Below, in pieces: positions 36,920 to 47,995 of a stretch of 64,000 bases of DNA; the stretch's first letter is position 1, and each line of letters opens with the position of its first letter. The position numbers and the translations under genes are program-made. Source of the stretch: Fimbriimonadia bacterium (GTDB lineage Bacteria > Armatimonadota > Fimbriimonadia > Fimbriimonadales > JABRVX01); contig JABRVX010000020.1 in NCBI GenBank assembly GCA_039961735.1, forward strand, positions 1 to 64,000. The letters run 5' to 3'. Under the pieces are notes generated by a model. That model was given only the letters and a program-made list of their open reading frames with translations. It did no database searches and had not been told where the DNA came from.

Positions 36920-39900
36920 TCACTTGATGCTGACCCGTAGCTCGCCGAGGTCGGGTCGCGTAGCGACCAACTTTTCATCTAGATACACGCTGAGCCCCTT
37001 GACGGAGCCTGCGTAATGCCCATCGGGATCGAAGACGATAGACAAGTCACGTCCATGGTAGCGCACCCGATCCAGCCGAAAGTACTTCAGCCCGCATGGG
37101 ATGGGCTCGATGATCAGCGTATCCCCCTCCGAGGGTATTACACCTACCACATGGCGGACGATCAGGTCGTTGTAGGTGCTATGGAAGTAGTCATAGCACC
37201 CCCACCCAGCTCCCGTCTCACCATGGTAGTACTCCTGGATCATAGGTCGCTTCAGGTCGCCATCCTCGAAATGCAGCCGGATGAACCGCTCCAGGAAGCG
37301 ACGGTACACGTCCGGGTCCAGCCACTCCGACGATGGGTACTCACGGATACCGTTAGCGATCGCATTCGCGATTAGGCTGTTCGCGTGCGGCCAGGTCGGC
37401 CCGTTCCACATGCAACCGGTGTGAACGCCCCCTTTGGCAGGCCACTGTTCTTGCGCGGGGGTGTAAGCGGGGCACTTCTTCGACACCGTCGCCAAAGGAA
37501 ACGGGTTCCAGAAGTACTCCGGGTCGGCCAGGAACCGATATGCCCTGGAGAACTCCAGCGCCGGCGGCGCGAGCCCGAAAGCGAACGGATAGAACCCCAC
37601 GATCTCCTGGCACTTGGCCTCTGCATCGTCATGCTCGCGAATCGCATAGAACCACGCATCCGCCGAGTTCCACAGTTTGGCCAGCGCGGCCTTCTGCATG
37701 TCTTGTGCGATGCGGTCCATCTCGAGCGCTTCGTCGGGCTTCCGCAATGCGCGGTAGGCATCCGCCGTCGCGCGCGTGTTGCCGTAGTGATAGGCTACTA
37801 AGTCCGCTCGCTCCAGCTTCGCCTCGGGCTTGGAGTTGTCATAGTCGTTGAAGTGGAAGAAGGCAGGCTGCCACTCCATGCCCGTGGGCCAGTGGCTGGG
37901 TGGTGAGCACAGCTTGTCCTTGTCCGAGTCGAACTCGACGAAGTGCCCGCGAACATCGGCTGCCATCGCATCCACCGTCTCTTCCAAGAACTTCCGGTCC
38001 GGATGAACCTGATAAGCACCCCACATAGAGAAGGGTATCCAGTTCGTGTACCACCCACCCACCCAGTTCGTCCGAACCGACTGGAACACGCCGTTCGAAT
38101 TGGCGTTCTGCGTGTGATTGCGCGATTGTCCGAAGGCGTAGCGCGCATCTCGCAGCCACCGCACCTCGTCAATAATGTGCGGGCTGGAATAGGCGATTTG
38201 CGTGGGGTACCAACCTCCGTGCATGCCCTCGAAGAAGCAATCGTAGCGCAATCGTCCCGTGTTTGCCCGCGAAAGGCAGTGACGTGTAACGAACCACCGG
38301 TAGGCCCACAACTTCGTCATGTACGGATCGGAGCAGTCGAACGTGGGGCAGTTGTCGTCGAACCACTTCTGGTACTGCGCAACGTGCTTGGCCAAGGGAT
38401 CGGCCATGGCGAGCCACGCCGCCAGCCGTTTCTCTGCTACGTCCTGTGTCTCGGCGACTGCACAGCCTATCACGATGCGTTGGGTCTCGCCAGGTTTGAG
38501 GCGCACCGTTCGCTCGAGGCTGTCGACACCGCCCATCGCGAGCCCTGTACCTCCGCCGACCGCTTCCGACGGGACGTCGTGGAACCGGTGCGACCCGACC
38601 AGACGGTCCTTCGAACCCTGTGCTGTGGCAGCCTCCAGGGATACGGCGACCACGACCGGCGCGATGGGTGTGCCACCGTCTTGCAACACGATGGACTGCA
38701 GCAGTTTGTCCTCCGCGACGGGGAAGGAGAGATTGCGCAACGGAGACCACCACATCGCTTCTCGACCAGTGAGGAATACTGGGAACGACGTGTTGGTGCC
38801 GTCGCCATAGCGCAGCACTATGGTCATGTCCGCGTTTCCGGCCACTCCGGCCTGATCGCTGCGCACGAATCCGCCGACTCCGCCGAGCAGGTGAACGGCT
38901 CTCGCACCCCGGCCCTCCGCTACCGGAATCTCCACGCGGTCCGGACGGCGTGGCCCCCTATCACCGCGCAACACGATGATCGCGCGGCCCGAAGTGTCCC
39001 AAGGTGCCAGAGTGTCATACTCCACGCTGCCGATACGCATCTTCCCAGGGATGTACTGAATCTGCTCGCTCTGCTCTTGTGAGTATGCGGTATGAGGGAC
39101 ATTGGACGGATCGAACAGCCCCTCCGTCAGGTAGAAGCCGTCGAAGTTCGTGTTATTGGCCGCCCGAGTGGATTGGAAGCGAATAGCGTGCACTCCCGCG
39201 GACATGGTGGGCAGCCTCGCACGAAGCCAATAGTAGTGCTCATCGATCTCACCCCACCCACCGGTCTGCGGCGGATCGAGAGTACCGACCTCTTTGCCGT
39301 CGAGCAGCACGCGCCACGACCCCTCCCTGGCGTCCCCAGGGGAGTCGTGTCTTGCTACCCTTACTAAAATGCTAGGCCTTCGGAGTGCAGGTGTAGCGAA
39401 TGTGTACTGTACCCAGTGGTCGGCCTCTCCACCGAACCCACTGCCGAGCACGAGACCGCCAGAAGCGGATTCCTTGCGATCCTCGCCTCCGAAGCCTCGG
39501 ATCGCCGAGTACGCCTCCGCTTCCTGCCACAGGCGGAAGTAGGTGTCCTCTCCAGTGAACAACTCGCCATTTGGGTACGGATCGGCGTTGGCCACGCTGC
39601 GAATGCTAACTGGGCGATACACCGCACCCATGCGTGCGACTTGCCCAGCGATACCGCTGCGCAACCGAACATCGAGCGACTTCGGCTCGGCGGAGGTATT
39701 GGTCACCTCGACAACGTCCAGGAACACGTCATCGTCCGTGATCATCTTCCTCTCGCGAATCTGCATGTCCGATGCCCCCCAGCGAGTCTCCACATGACTG
39801 GGCCGCCAGGTGGTCTTCCGGTCTGAGGGATACAGAACCTCACCACCGATAGACAGATCGAGTGCCAGCGGGTCGAGGAGCCTCGAGGAATGCACGTAGC

Positions 39901-40072
39901 AAAAGTGGCCGCGCATACCAGGGGCGGGAGCCAAACGCTCCGTGAAGAGCCGGCGACCCGTAGAGCCCAGCGTGCCATACCGGTCACCATCTCGCTCCAG
40001 AACGGAGTCTATGTTCATCGTGTGCTGTGGGGCCAGGGTCTGCAGCAAGCAGGCTATCACCGCTATCGTCAT
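36920..40072 (-). CDS. Secreted GH63/GH37-like (alpha/alpha)6 hydrolase with inserted CBM-like domain
   Basis: A 1050-residue exported protein (leader TIAVIACLLQTLA). A beta-sandwich N-terminal domain is interrupted at about residues 190-310 by a segment resembling a CBM6/CBM35 sugar-binding module (WQEAEAYSAIRGFGGED ... GFYLTEG). The C-terminal half (about 570-1000) looks like an (alpha/alpha)6 barrel with the GH63/trehalase-type motif NGPTWPHANSLI near residue 890 and EYYHGETGAGWG near 970. The exact family and substrate are not certain. Its ATG overlaps the permease stop by four bases, so hydrolase and transporter are translationally coupled. Confidence 0.72.
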   Translation of the reverse strand: MTIAVIACLLQTLAPQHTMNIDSVLERDGDRYGTLGSTGRRLFTERLAPAPGMRGHFCYVHSSRLLDPLALDLSIGGEVLYPSDRKTTWRPSHVETRWGASDMQIRERKMITDDDVFLDVVEVTNTSAEPKSLDVRLRSGIAGQVARMGAVYRPVSIRSVANADPYPNGELFTGEDTYFRLWQEAEAYSAIRGFGGEDRKESASGGLVLGSGFGGEADHWVQYTFATPALRRPSILVRVARHDSPGDAREGSWRVLLDGKEVGTLDPPQTGGWGEIDEHYYWLRARLPTMSAGVHAIRFQSTRAANNTNFDGFYLTEGLFDPSNVPHTAYSQEQSEQIQYIPGKMRIGSVEYDTLAPWDTSGRAIIVLRGDRGPRRPDRVEIPVAEGRGARAVHLLGGVGGFVRSDQAGVAGNADMTIVLRYGDGTNTSFPVFLTGREAMWWSPLRNLSFPVAEDKLLQSIVLQDGGTPIAPVVVAVSLEAATAQGSKDRLVGSHRFHDVPSEAVGGGTGLAMGGVDSLERTVRLKPGETQRIVIGCAVAETQDVAEKRLAAWLAMADPLAKHVAQYQKWFDDNCPTFDCSDPYMTKLWAYRWFVTRHCLSRANTGRLRYDCFFEGMHGGWYPTQIAYSSPHIIDEVRWLRDARYAFGQSRNHTQNANSNGVFQSVRTNWVGGWYTNWIPFSMWGAYQVHPDRKFLEETVDAMAADVRGHFVEFDSDKDKLCSPPSHWPTGMEWQPAFFHFNDYDNSKPEAKLERADLVAYHYGNTRATADAYRALRKPDEALEMDRIAQDMQKAALAKLWNSADAWFYAIREHDDAEAKCQEIVGFYPFAFGLAPPALEFSRAYRFLADPEYFWNPFPLATVSKKCPAYTPAQEQWPAKGGVHTGCMWNGPTWPHANSLIANAIANGIREYPSSEWLDPDVYRRFLERFIRLHFEDGDLKRPMIQEYYHGETGAGWGCYDYFHSTYNDLIVRHVVGVIPSEGDTLIIEPIPCGLKYFRLDRVRYHGRDLSIVFDPDGHYAGSVKGLSVYLDEKLVATRPDLGELRVSIK

Positions 40073-41070
40073 ATCTTCTCCTCCACGCTCGCTTCTCGTC
40101 GCGTTCTCCTTGCCGCGGCGTACCGCTTGACGAGCTCGTCGACGACCACTCCCACGAGTATGACTGCGCCGATGACCGCGAACTCGAGTTGTGTCGCAAT
40201 ACCTAACACGTTGATCGCGTTGTAGAGCACGCGCAGAATCGCTGCGCCTATCACCACGCCCAGAATCGTGCCATCACCGCCCCGAAGACTGCAGCCACCT
40301 AGGACTGCGGCGGCGATCGCATACAACTCATAGAAGTTGCCGTGTCCCGCAGGTTGCACGGCGTTCACGTCCAGCGCGAAAAGTACTCCAGCAAACCCGG
40401 CGAGCAACGCAGACACCACGTACGCCAGCAAAATGAGCCGCCCCGTGTTGATGCCGCTGAACCGAGCGGCCTGCTCGTTCCGGCCGAGAGCTAACAAGTG
40501 TCTTCCGTATACGGAGCGATGCAGGAAGACTCCCGCGATGATGGCAATCGCCAGGAGCAGAAGGAACGGCATGGGAACTGCGACTACGTCACCCCCAGGA
40601 CCGGGAAATGAGATTGGGGTCCCCTTCACCAGGTATTTGAGCTCCGTATGGCCGACCCCGAAACCTTGCGTCGCGTCCTTCGTCACGTAGCGCGCTGCAC
40701 CGCGATAAATCAGCAGGCCGCAAAGAGTGACGATGAACGGTTGAAGCCGCATCTTCGTAACCAATAGGCCATGTGCTACCCCGATCAGCACGGAGAGTCC
40801 TAGGACTACCAGCAGGCCAACACCCACGGACACTCCCGACGCAAGCATCATCGCGAGCAGGGAACCTACCAGTCCGACGATCGAACCGACGGACAGGTCT
40901 ATGCCCCCGGTGATGATCACCATGGCTTCGCCGATGCTGAGGATGCCGAATAGCCCCGTCCATCGCGCGATGTTGCCGATGTTGTATGCGCTCAGGAAGC
41001 GTGGGTCCAGGATGGATGTCAGCACAACCACCGCGACGAGCAGAGCGAGAATGCCTCGAACCTTCTTCAC
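40069..41070 (-). CDS. Sugar ABC transporter permease (RbsC/CUT2 type)
   Basis: A 333-residue inner-membrane permease with eight to ten hydrophobic segments. Family segments are GEAMVIITGGIDLSVGSIVGLVGSLLAM (residues about 45-75), GRHLLALGRNEQAARFSGINTGRL (about 190-213) and AIAAAVLGGCSLRGGDGTILGVVIGA near 260, where GG-x-x-x-x-GG-x-G contacts the ATPase. The GTG start overlaps the ATPase stop by four bases. As part of the CUT2 class it imports monosaccharides or small glycosides; ligand unknown. Confidence 0.93.
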   Translation of the reverse strand: MKKVRGILALLVAVVVLTSILDPRFLSAYNIGNIARWTGLFGILSIGEAMVIITGGIDLSVGSIVGLVGSLLAMMLASGVSVGVGLLVVLGLSVLIGVAHGLLVTKMRLQPFIVTLCGLLIYRGAARYVTKDATQGFGVGHTELKYLVKGTPISFPGPGGDVVAVPMPFLLLLAIAIIAGVFLHRSVYGRHLLALGRNEQAARFSGINTGRLILLAYVVSALLAGFAGVLFALDVNAVQPAGHGNFYELYAIAAAVLGGCSLRGGDGTILGVVIGAAILRVLYNAINVLGIATQLEFAVIGAVILVGVVVDELVKRYAAARRTRREASVEEKI

Positions 41071-42572
41071 GTCGCTCGACCTCCGGTAGCCAGTGACATG
41101 ATCGCTTCTTCGGTGATCGACTCGCCCTGCAGTTCGCCCGCGATTGTCCCCTCGTGCATAACTACCACTCGATCACACACACCTATCAGCTCCTGCATCT
41201 CGCTCGAGATCATCAGAGTCGCCACGCCAGAAACGGCCAGTCGCTCGATGAGTCGATAGATCTCCTCCTTCGCACCGACGTCAACGCCGCGCGTGGGTTC
41301 GTCGAGCAGCAGCGCCTTCGGTTGCAGGACCAGCCACTTCGCCAGTACCACCTTCTGCTGATTGCCACCAGAGAGGTACTGCGTCTCTTGTTCGATGCTG
41401 GGGGTGCGGATGTCCAGTTCGCGTACCATGCGCTCAGCGAGCTCAGTCTCTATCGAGGTGCGAACCAGACCGGCTCGTTGCCACCTACGCAGCCCGGCGA
41501 GGGTCACGTTCTCCCTGACCGCCATCTCCAGGATCAGGCCTTGAGACTTTCGATCCTCCGGCACGAGGGCGAGCCCGGCCCTGATTGATTGGAAGGGAGA
41601 GTGGCCGTGCAGGACCATGTCATCCACGCGAACCGTCCCGGCTGCCACGGGGTCTATGCCGAAGATCGCTCGGGCCAGCTCCGTCCGACCCGCTCCGACG
41701 AGGCCCGCCACTCCGACTACCTCGCCCGCACACACGCTCAACGAAAGGGCGGGACCTGGTCTGGTCTGCAGTCGAAGGCCATCTACCTCAAGCACGGGTC
41801 GACTCGTACCGTGAGAGGTACGCCCGTAGAATTGGGATATATCACGCCCGACCATTAGGCGTACCATGTTTTCGTGGGTGATGTCGGTGCCTGTCAGTTC
41901 GCCTGCATTGCGCCCATCGCGCAGAACGACGACCCGATCGGCAACACGCGTGACTTCTCGCAGTCGGTGCGAGATGTAGATGACACTAACACCCTGACCG
42001 CGCAGGTCGGCGATCACCGCGAACAGCCGCTCGGTCTCCGTCTCTGTCAGACTGCTGGTCGGCTCATCCATGATGAGGATGCGTGCATCGGTGGACAGCG
42101 CCTTCGCAATCTCTACCATCTGCTGTTTGCCTATGGGCAGATCGGAGACGGTGGCCTCGGGTGAGCAATCGAGCCCGAGTCGATCCAGTAGCGCGCAAGT
42201 CTGCACTGCCATCCGCCTACGATCCGCAATGCCGAGGCGGCGCGGCTCGCGTCCAAGGAACACGTTGCCCGCAACGTCCAAGTTGTCGGCGAGGTTCAGC
42301 TCTTGATGGATCAGTGCGATGCCCAATGCCGTCGCTTCGCTTACACTACCGATCGCCACCGGCTGTCCGTCCAATAGGATGGCTCCCGAGTCGGCCGGTT
42401 GTTCGCCCGCCAGGATCTTCATCAATGTGCTCTTGCCCGCGCCGTTCTCACCGATTACGGCGAGTACCTCTCCGTGACCCAGCTTCAAGGACACGTCCGA
42501 CAGGGCCACCACGCCGGGAAATCGTTTGGTGATCTTGCAGACCTCGAGTAGCGGAGGAGACTCGGGAGTCAC
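41067..42572 (-). CDS. Sugar ABC transporter ATPase with two nucleotide-binding domains (RbsA type)
   Basis: A 501-residue double ATPase as in RbsA/MglA. The first half has Walker A GENGAGKSTLMK (about residue 40), DLPIGKQQMVEIAKAL as signature, and ILIMDEPTSSLTETE. The second half has the usual degenerate Walker A (GLVGAGRTELARAIFG), the signature LSGGNQQKVVLAKWL and LLLDEPTRGVDVGAK. The GTG start lies 11 bases after the binding-protein stop. It powers uptake of the sugar caught by the adjacent, apparently permuted binding protein. Confidence 0.94.
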   Translation of the reverse strand: MTPESPPLLEVCKITKRFPGVVALSDVSLKLGHGEVLAVIGENGAGKSTLMKILAGEQPADSGAILLDGQPVAIGSVSEATALGIALIHQELNLADNLDVAGNVFLGREPRRLGIADRRRMAVQTCALLDRLGLDCSPEATVSDLPIGKQQMVEIAKALSTDARILIMDEPTSSLTETETERLFAVIADLRGQGVSVIYISHRLREVTRVADRVVVLRDGRNAGELTGTDITHENMVRLMVGRDISQFYGRTSHGTSRPVLEVDGLRLQTRPGPALSLSVCAGEVVGVAGLVGAGRTELARAIFGIDPVAAGTVRVDDMVLHGHSPFQSIRAGLALVPEDRKSQGLILEMAVRENVTLAGLRRWQRAGLVRTSIETELAERMVRELDIRTPSIEQETQYLSGGNQQKVVLAKWLVLQPKALLLDEPTRGVDVGAKEEIYRLIERLAVSGVATLMISSEMQELIGVCDRVVVMHEGTIAGELQGESITEEAIMSLATGGRAT

Positions 42573-42583
42573 AGAAGCAGTCG

Positions 42584-43657
42584 CTACCCTCCGAGAGCCT
42601 TCACTTCGTCGGGTATTGGGGCACCCTTAAGCTCGTCAATAATGCCTTGCCTCCGCTCCTTGGCATTCTGCGCGTCAATCCTTCCGACGAAAAGCATGAT
42701 CTTTCCTCCGTTGGGCAATACCTCTTTGATCAGCTTGCCCGCCTCGCGGCCTGCCAAGTAGTTATGGGTCCCTATGTAGCACAGGCGATTGCTCTTGGGT
42801 GCGTCACTGTCGTGACAAATCACGTTCATCACTTCGCACGCGCGGTTGATCATCTCCACCTGGTTCTCCGGATCGTTCGGGCTGATGGCCATGCCACTGA
42901 CACGCTTCGCGATCAGCGCCTCGACCATCCGCTGCTGGTCCGCAACACCTTCGGCGGGGGTGAGAAACTCCACGCCGATGCCAAGCTCTGCCTCCGCTTT
43001 CCGAACGCCCGCATGCGCGATCTTCCAGAAGTCCGAGGGGTTGTTGGTGACGAAGGCGAGCTTGATCTTCCCGTCGCCCGGCGGAGCAGGCCTATCCGCT
43101 TCCGCGCGCAGCTTCTTCAGGTTGTCCCGGAAGGCCTGAGCGTTGTCCTTTCGGATCACCTGCACCGGCACGATGATGTTCTTGCTCGGTGGAATGACCG
43201 ACTTGTCACCCTGTGCCAGGGCCGCAAGTACCTTGACCGACCGATAACCAAACTCGAACGGCTGCTGCACCACGGTCGCGTGGATGTGCCCGTCCAGCAC
43301 GCCCTGCAGCGTGTCGTCCTCTTCGTCGAAGCACACGATGGGCACCTTGCCACCGAGCCCAGCGTCTTTGACCGCCGAAAGGATCGCAGGCCCGTTGTAG
43401 CTCCATAGCCCGACCAAGCAGCCGATGTCCTTGTGGCTGGCCAGCGTGTCTTCCACGTTCTGCTTTGCCCGGGCACGGTCGGTGAGGTCCGTGCGTGTCC
43501 CCAGAATGGTGATGTTGCCGGCTTGGATCACCTGCATCGCGTCGTCTTGGTCGCCGCCCGGTTGCTGAGTCGTGCCCGTGTCGCCTGCCGGCTTTGCACA
43601 CCCAGCGCCGATGGCGATAACGAGCACCAGAAGCCCAAACCACGAAATCCTTCTCAT
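42584..43657 (-). CDS. Circularly permuted sugar-binding lipoprotein (RbsB-like)
   Basis: A 357-residue lipoprotein with lipidated C20 in GAGC and a Gly/Gln-rich linker to about residue 47. The next part, residues 48-187, reads like the C-terminal half of an RbsB-type protein (ILGTRTDLTDRARAKQNVED, LVGLWSYNGPAIL, IVCFDEEDDTLQGV, TVVQQPFEFGYRSV). After a linker (RAEADRPAPPGDG), residues 197-357 read like the N-terminal half (KIKLAFVTNNPSDFWKIA, GMAISPNDPENQ, HDSDAPKSNRLCYIGT, GKIMLFVGRIDAQNAKERRQ). The order is thus reversed relative to the family, with new ends inside the C-lobe. The gene opens the operon, is uninterrupted and has GGAG nine bases before its ATG. Confidence 0.85.
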   Translation of the reverse strand: MRRISWFGLLVLVIAIGAGCAKPAGDTGTTQQPGGDQDDAMQVIQAGNITILGTRTDLTDRARAKQNVEDTLASHKDIGCLVGLWSYNGPAILSAVKDAGLGGKVPIVCFDEEDDTLQGVLDGHIHATVVQQPFEFGYRSVKVLAALAQGDKSVIPPSKNIIVPVQVIRKDNAQAFRDNLKKLRAEADRPAPPGDGKIKLAFVTNNPSDFWKIAHAGVRKAEAELGIGVEFLTPAEGVADQQRMVEALIAKRVSGMAISPNDPENQVEMINRACEVMNVICHDSDAPKSNRLCYIGTHNYLAGREAGKLIKEVLPNGGKIMLFVGRIDAQNAKERRQGIIDELKGAPIPDEVKALGG

Positions 43658-46135: not shown

Positions 46136-46726
46136 GTGAGCCCCGGCTCCCCGTGCGTCTGCGCAGACTGGAGACCTCGCGGCAGGCGTGTTGGGACACA
46201 TCGTCCACACCTCTAGTCGGGCGCTGCAGCGCGGGAATCTCTCTGCGGATCTCTGCGGGCTCCGCGTGAGACTGACGGGGGGCTTGCTGCGACTGCCACC
46301 GGGCTTGGCCTCACCGTGTTACATGCCCTGGCCGGCGACGGCCCGCTGCAGCACCACCTCACCGTATGCTGCAGCTCCAAGAGCCCGGCCCATCGCCCGG
46401 CGGGACGAACGTTGGTTTGCAGCCCCGGCAGTTGTTCTCGGCCGTCGAGGGCGCCGGAACTACGAGGTCGCGACAAAACGTGGACGGTCCGGCGGGACGC
46501 CGGGATCACGGGGCTCGACATCTCCGGCGGCGCAGGGCCACCATGAGCACGCCGAACGCAGCTGCGGCGAGGCCACCCGGCTCCGGGAGGGGTATCCCAG
46601 GCACGACATGGTCCGACCAAACAAGCACCGCCAGGTAGCAGATCATAGGCACCGGAAGGGATCGCAGGCGGTCGAGGGGAACTTCGGAGCAGGTGCTGAC
46701 GAACCTACTTCGAGGAGGTGGAGAGC
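46136..46726. other. About 590 bp without an intact gene
   Basis: Open frames on both strands here lack ribosome sites and recognisable domains. The only meaningful reading is the PEP-CTERM-like tail on the minus strand at 46506-46607. The segment may be the remains of a degraded surface-protein gene. Confidence 0.45.
46506..46607 (-). pseudogene. Orphan PEP-CTERM sorting-signal remnant
   Basis: The minus strand encodes a PEP-CTERM tail ending at a TGA at 46506: PLPEPGGLAAAAFGVLMVAL followed by RRRR and six more residues. This has all three parts of the signal: PEP motif, hydrophobic helix, Arg cluster. The frame is open upstream only to about 46736 and shows no signal peptide or surface domain, because the next gene starts at 46727 on the other strand. 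It looks like the 3-prime stump of a deleted gene. An intact mini-protein of 46-76 residues is possible but less likely. Confidence 0.55.
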
Positions 46727-47995
46727 ATGTTTGCACTGATCGGAACCTTGGCTATTCTCGGTACCGTCGCTTCTTCAGGGGGGCCGACCGCAAAGATCAA
46801 GGTGCTGTTCCTCAGCGGCTGGACCATCCACGAACACGAGACCTTGCCGCCCGTGCTGCTCAGGGCGCTGAACGCAACGGGTGACTTCGAGGTGACGCTC
46901 TCTTCCGACAAGAGCCTCCTCGCGAAACTCTCGCCCTACGACGTCGTCCTCTTGTACACGACGGGCGGCGACCTTACCAAAGAGGAGGAGACGGGTCTCT
47001 GGAACTTCGTGGACAACGGCAAGGGCCTTGCGGGCATCCACAGCGCATCCGACTCCTTCAAGAACAGCGACAAGTTCTGGCAACTGCTTGGGGGGCGCTT
47101 CGTCAGCCACGGTGCCGGGACGTACAAGGTGAACATCAAGCGTGGCGGTCCTGTGCCCGAGATCGTCGCAGGCCTCGGGGACTTCACCATTACCGACGAG
47201 ACGTACGTCAACGACATTCACAAGAAGTCCTTCATCCAGCCCCTGGCATACCGCGCCGAGGACAACGAGCCCGCGGCGTGGATCCAGCAGCAAGGGAAGG
47301 GCCGCGTGTTCTACACGAACCTGGGTCACGGGATGCCGGCATGGACCAACGAGTCTTTTCAAAAACTGGTCGTGAACGGGCTGTACTGGGTGGCAGGTCG
47401 CACGCCTTCACCGGGTGCCCTGGACAAGGTCGAGTGGGGATTCCGAGACCTGTTCAACGGGAAGGACCTCTCGAACTGGATCGTCCCGGGTGACCAGTGG
47501 CAGGCGAAGGACGGGGTGATCGACTGTAAAGGCGGCAGCGGCGGCTGGCTGATGAGCAAGGAGGAGTTCGAGGACTTCGAGTTTCGTTTCGAGTACCGAA
47601 TCAGCAAAGGCGGCAACAGCGGCGCATCGTTTCGTGCAACTCTCGAGGGCAATCCGGCCTTCACCGGCCACGAAATCCAGATTCTGGATGACCACGGCCA
47701 ACCACCGAGCAAGCACGGCACCGCTTCCCTCTACGATGCCATAGCCCCCACCATGAACCCGAGCAAGCCCGCGTGGGAATGGAACGAGGTGTTCATCAGG
47801 TGCGTGGGCCGTCAGCTCACCGTCACTCAGAACGGCCTGCGGGTGATGAACGTGAATCTGGATGACGCTGCGGTGAACCACCCGCTGGAAGAGAGCGTCA
47901 AGATGTGGAACCGGGCGAAGAAGGGCCACTTCGCGTTCCAGGACCACGGCTACCCGGTCCAGTTCCGCAACGTCCGCGTGCGGGTCCTCCCGTAG
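46727..47995 (+). CDS. Secreted ThuA-like / DUF1080 (3-keto-disaccharide hydrolase) fusion
   Basis: A 422-residue exported protein (leader FALIGTLAILGTVASS); the ATG at 46727 follows GAGGAGG. Residues about 25-225 form a ThuA-type, class I amidotransferase-like fold (KVLFLSGWTIHEHETL, GKGLAGIHSASDSF, GKGRVFYTNLGHGMPAW). Residues about 235-420 form a DUF1080 domain (FRDLFNGKDLSNWIVPGDQW, GNSGASFRA, GHEIQILDDHG). DUF1080 members have been linked to 3-keto-glycoside hydrolysis and ThuA to trehalose use, so the fusion probably acts on oxidised disaccharides or glycosides outside the cytoplasm. No oxidoreductase partner is nearby. Confidence 0.85.
   Translation: MFALIGTLAILGTVASSGGPTAKIKVLFLSGWTIHEHETLPPVLLRALNATGDFEVTLSSDKSLLAKLSPYDVVLLYTTGGDLTKEEETGLWNFVDNGKGLAGIHSASDSFKNSDKFWQLLGGRFVSHGAGTYKVNIKRGGPVPEIVAGLGDFTITDETYVNDIHKKSFIQPLAYRAEDNEPAAWIQQQGKGRVFYTNLGHGMPAWTNESFQKLVVNGLYWVAGRTPSPGALDKVEWGFRDLFNGKDLSNWIVPGDQWQAKDGVIDCKGGSGGWLMSKEEFEDFEFRFEYRISKGGNSGASFRATLEGNPAFTGHEIQILDDHGQPPSKHGTASLYDAIAPTMNPSKPAWEWNEVFIRCVGRQLTVTQNGLRVMNVNLDDAAVNHPLEESVKMWNRAKKGHFAFQDHGYPVQFRNVRVRVLP

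Follow-up and report, generated by a model that had tools for sequence, protein, structure and literature searches.

A circularly permuted member of the type I (RbsB-like) sugar-binding protein family in a Fimbriimonadia bacterium

A gene in the window, the 64,000-nucleotide stretch of contig JABRVX010000020.1 of a Fimbriimonadia bacterium analysed here, encodes a circularly permuted offshoot of the type I (CUT2/RbsB-like, Peripla_BP_4) family. It is very likely that the product is a working, tethered receptor of a CUT2-type ABC importer, and that its permutation is an old trait inherited within one clade. This explanation draws on the order of the chain, the conservation of that order, the fold of both a model and a solved homolog, and the surrounding operon.

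Chain order and fold of the window protein

The reading frame is intact, as the sequence-only reading had held, and runs through 357 amino acids (Table 1). Peripla_BP_4 (PF13407) matches the product in two stretches that between them include both halves of the profile (E 2e-53; score 182 bits, cut-off 35), with residues 204-348 corresponding to positions 5-150 of the 258 in the profile; the N-terminal half of the profile therefore maps to the latter part of the chain. Alignment to the normal-order Thermotoga maritima proteins 2qvc and 2h3h likewise yields two swapped blocks, query residues 205-348 matching chain residues 10-155 and query residues 45-147 matching chain residues 151-253. By Pfam, PDB alignment and Foldseek alike, the canonical N-lobe-first order is absent. 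The profile and the block-swapped alignments hence agree with the earlier proposal that the C-terminal half comes first, and neither of the two outcomes that had been named as evidence against it, one of them collinearity with the family, has occurred. The chain is cut in the C-lobe between the first helix, NAKERRQGIIDEL, and the second strand, ITILGTRTD, at the site where the sequence-only reading had placed it.

Table 1. Features of the permuted gene and of its operon in the window
Feature	Position	Strand	Basis
Permuted type I (CUT2/RbsB-like) sugar-binding lipoprotein (predicted), 357 aa	42584..43657	-	ORF, Pfam, PDB alignment, AlphaFold, Foldseek
Signal peptide with putative lipobox IGAGC, residues 1-20, atypical G at -3	43598..43657	-	Sequence
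Flexible head, residues 21-47, from the putatively lipidated Cys to the moved half	43517..43597	-	Comparison of permuted homologs, AlphaFold
Half that was originally C-terminal, residues 48-187, with strands 2-5 of the C-lobe, a crossover and the N-lobe's last strand and helix	43097..43516	-	Pfam, PDB alignment, AlphaFold
Pro/Gly linker, residues 188-197, from old C-terminus to old N-terminus	43067..43096	-	Homolog comparison
Half that was originally N-terminal, residues 198-343, with strands 1-4 of the N-lobe, a crossover and the C-lobe's strand 1 and helix	42629..43066	-	Pfam, PDB alignment, AlphaFold
New C-terminal tail, KGAPIPDEVKALGG	42587..42628	-	Homolog comparison
Partner ATPase, two ABC domains, sugar (AraG/RbsA-like), normal order	41067..42572	-	Pfam, locus comparison
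Partner permease, BPD_transp_2, RbsC-like, normal order	40069..41070	-	Pfam, locus comparison
Glycoside hydrolase, MGH1-like domain, weak CBM6 match, overlaps permease end	36920..40072	-	Pfam, locus comparison

The structure prediction that had been suggested as a check gives a confident fold (AlphaFold on 37 rows, pLDDT 90, pTM 0.85). Foldseek aligns this model end to end with PDB 5er3, a solute-binding protein of Rhodopirellula baltica SH 1 (312 columns, E 2e-34, TM 0.83 by target), against only about 150 columns with normal-order sugar-binding proteins, such half matches being expected of a sequential aligner. The same protein is the best PDB match, with its residues in the same order over query positions 44-350 (E 4e-88). 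The permuted chain begins at C-lobe strand 2 and ends after C-lobe helix 1, and the old termini are bridged by a short linker. With the two-lobed fold and sugar cleft kept in this way, the protein should still open and close on its sugar and pass it to a normal permease.

The order is also conserved. Sixteen further distinct homologs share it, at 44-74% identity and from at least three named phyla: other Armatimonadota, Planctomycetota and one Omnitrophota metagenome-assembled genome (MAG), the last at 74%. The named records are Fimbriimonadaceae, Fimbriimonadia and Chthonomonas MAGs within the Armatimonadota, and Omnitrophota, Sedimentisphaerales and Phycisphaerae MAGs. Among 291 sampled genomes of the window's own phylum, the family is present in 55, and five others (G020, G031, G167, G169 and G170) have the window order; among 392 from the phylum of locus L061 (Planctomycetota by record title), the family is present in 71 and the window order in nine. 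The search for same-order homologs that the sequence-only reading had recommended thus extends well past related genomes and, together with the end-to-end match to 5er3, bears out its diagnosis of circular permutation. The permuted members are identical to one another over long stretches in each half. Their tails mostly read IDELx(D/G)KP(I/M)P and their heads (I/V)xAG(K/N)(Y/W)TIL; the head of the window protein terminates in the (I/V)xAG(K/N) common to most of them, and the GxPIP-like element of its tail is seen again in permuted homologs.

These homologs leave virtually no probability to an artefact of assembly or recombination in a single genome. The window genome is a 77-contig draft, which would favour such an explanation, but assemblies made independently, from other species and phyla, show the identical order, as does the crystallised protein of R. 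baltica, and the open reading frame is unbroken, with a signal peptide, a linker and an operon around it; the recurrence in unrelated assemblies refutes the artefact.

Two permuted homologs (L129 and L130) carry a long C-terminal tail of Pro-Glu-Lys repeats (KEEAPKEEAPKEE...) at the new terminus made by the permutation. No relative of the window protein was found on the viral contigs searched, and a scan for promoters and terminators around the permuted gene found none.

Operon, predicted function and lipid anchor

The ATPase and permease encoded beside the gene have the domains and order of ordinary sugar importers, in keeping with the earlier description of them as normal. In most loci checked, permuted and normal-order alike, the ATPase gene follows that of the binding protein, and the permease gene comes next wherever the checked locus reaches far enough. 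As these partners are normal, the window protein is most likely an ordinary Venus-flytrap receptor; on the simplest reading, it would be a usual sugar receptor in which only the start of the chain has moved. The closest solved normal-order relative is the T. maritima glucose/xylose-binding protein, and from this kinship alone we infer a glucose-like or pentose ligand. The large glycoside hydrolase that overlaps the permease gene has no counterpart beside the homologous operons checked, and hence possibly hints at the sugar handled by the window operon. This hydrolase shows weak similarity to HypBA2. Elsewhere in the window, positions 46718-47995 encode a single protein with a ThuA domain and a 3-keto-disaccharide hydrolase domain.

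The sequence-only reading had also placed a lipobox ahead of the moved half. A candidate, IGAGC, is indeed present there, but with G in place of L at position -3 it fails a simple lipobox pattern; lipidation is therefore likely, if at a site that is not textbook. The simple pattern is passed by 16 of the 17 permuted rows. In the permuted form the lipid anchor would enter via the C-lobe, as against the N-lobe in the normal form, and the idea that this moved tether alters docking was likewise part of the sequence-only reading; such an effect may follow. It could be supposed that membrane tethering favoured a C-lobe anchor and so selected for the permutation, an idea that has been raised for TpMglB-2 (PMC4990184) and that accords with the near-universal lipobox of permuted members (16 of 17, plus the atypical one of the window). 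However, the lipobox is also present in 60 of 70 normal-order homologs with a short loop at the cut site and 21 of 30 with a long one. As most normal-order homologs are lipoproteins too, tethering does not separate the two orders, nor is permutation required for it; selection through the tether is accordingly improbable and was set aside.

A second permutation and the origin of the window order

The family contains a second permuted type, present in two genomes at 67-71% identity: L136 in G482 (1369-2511) and L143 in G661 (1492-2634), the order of the latter being found with a doubled query, to which any permutant can align as a single block. In L136, a lipoprotein signal is followed by the counterpart of window residue 104 (VKVIAFDEN), the sequence up to the old C-terminus, a linker and the N-half; a 23-amino acid loop and the equivalent of window residues 49-102 then complete the chain, and the ATPase gene follows. 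Both types belong to the same binding protein family, with a lipobox (atypical and putative in the window protein) and an ATPase gene of the same kind after them, but the second begins with strand 4 of the C-lobe and finishes after the helix that comes before this strand, whereas the window type is cut before strand 2. An AlphaFold model of the second type, built on two sequences, was too poor for use (pLDDT 42). In the unconstrained tree the second type sits inside a normal-order clade, and a single clade of both types is rejected (AU test, p = 1.4e-5), which implies at least two separate permutation events within this one family.

Approximately 30 normal-order homologs have 21-30 residues exactly at the cut of the window protein, where others have four. 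These loops start with IDEL(L/M)(D/G)R and often end in (E/G)KYTIL, and so resemble a permuted tail joined to a permuted head. Two histories would account for this: the loop existed beforehand and the cut was made in it later, or it is a scar left behind when the chain reverted to normal order. The former possibility, an insertion in a normal-order ancestor with the chain cut inside it once or twice thereafter, is given a little under an even chance. It is favoured by the motifs shared between the loops and the permuted termini, and by the failure of the AU test to reject all 17 window-type rows as one clade (p = 0.33, or 0.26 when L063g2, a normal-order gene described below, is included). Against it, the looped clade (100/99) is nested among permuted genes in the unconstrained tree, grouping with those of the R. 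baltica type while the window's own group lies outside (93/90), and L063g2, the normal-order gene closest to that of the window protein, has just four residues at the site. The position of the looped clade would fit the scar reading instead. This tree needs three changes for the permuted label and has a normal-order clade among permuted sequences, which weighs against a single origin. Permutation in the family may be recurrent and reversible: an early window type would have been permuted back, leaving its tail and head as the 21-30 residue loop, and L136 and L143 would have come from another permutation elsewhere in the chain. This sequence of events is put forward tentatively, as somewhat less probable than an initial loop insertion. 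We propose that the window-type order itself arose long ago and was passed down within one clade, a grouping that the test does not reject.

As to how the order arose, a gene was probably duplicated in tandem, after which the outer halves were lost. At L063:2029-4261, in a Phycisphaeraceae MAG, two binding protein genes of normal order lie in tandem, the first with a 30-amino acid loop at the window's cut site and the second (L063g2) without; a first impression that this locus was another permutation was mistaken. Such a pair is the arrangement that duplication would require, and a gene with the C-half ahead of the N-half could be cut from it. No full-length fused tandem, the expected intermediate, was found among the homologs. 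The presence of tandem paralogs would equally allow the permuted gene to be a fusion of the C-half of one with the N-half of another, rather than a single gene permuted, and the tree of N-halves unites all window-type genes with L063g2 where that of C-halves does not. Yet the closest relative of the window protein is L056 for either half (75% and 76% identity), and L063g2 falls near the permuted genes in both of these trees, which are themselves weakly supported. Fusion of two paralogs is therefore rather unlikely, and the duplication of one gene is preferred.

Comparison with known systems

The nearest known structure, 5er3, was released in 2015 and has the same cut and order as the window protein, being collinear with it over approximately 305 residues at 48% identity; it is 72% identical to another permuted locus, L128. 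Sharing the C-lobe cut and an end-to-end collinear match, the window protein belongs to the same permuted family. A literature search on 5er3 and on permutation in solute-binding proteins and in planctomycetes, with most subscription journals outside its reach, found no paper on a permutation of the window type. The sequence-only reading had held natural permutations in type I binding proteins to be few. This stands in so far as the literature yielded only TpMglB-2 (Tp0684) of Treponema pallidum, although that protein is a published precedent: a natural circular permutation termed type Ic or cluster Bc (PMC4990184; 5jx2, 6bgc). TpMglB-2, likewise a type I sugar-binding protein and tethered, was demonstrated to bind glucose and to alter its conformation; a cut in its N-lobe has made the first three strands C-terminal and added a fourth crossover (PMC4990184). 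By contrast, the window protein keeps its N-lobe order and is cut in the C-lobe; it is hence not of the type Ic family, and its fold is poorly matched by TpMglB-2 (Foldseek TM approximately 0.4). The T. maritima proteins 2h3h, 2qvc and 3c6q and those of the RbsB type share Peripla_BP_4 with the window protein, at about 34% identity over one half, but have the normal order and align as two swapped blocks.

To our knowledge, only a few binding proteins have been circularly permuted in nature, and how this came about can seldom be traced. The present family combines the normal order, two separate permutations, a looped clade, a tandem pair and ordinary transporter genes, and such variety makes both the steps of permutation and the effect of anchor position on docking testable with natural sequences. 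The natural cut sites could also be used in the engineering of sugar sensors. Permutation in the type I fold was already known from TpMglB-2, and a crystal structure with the window's cut, as judged by its sequence order, already existed in 5er3, its permutation unremarked as far as we found. What is new is a second permutation at another point, separately arisen, together with a normal-order clade that bears a loop at the cut of the window protein.
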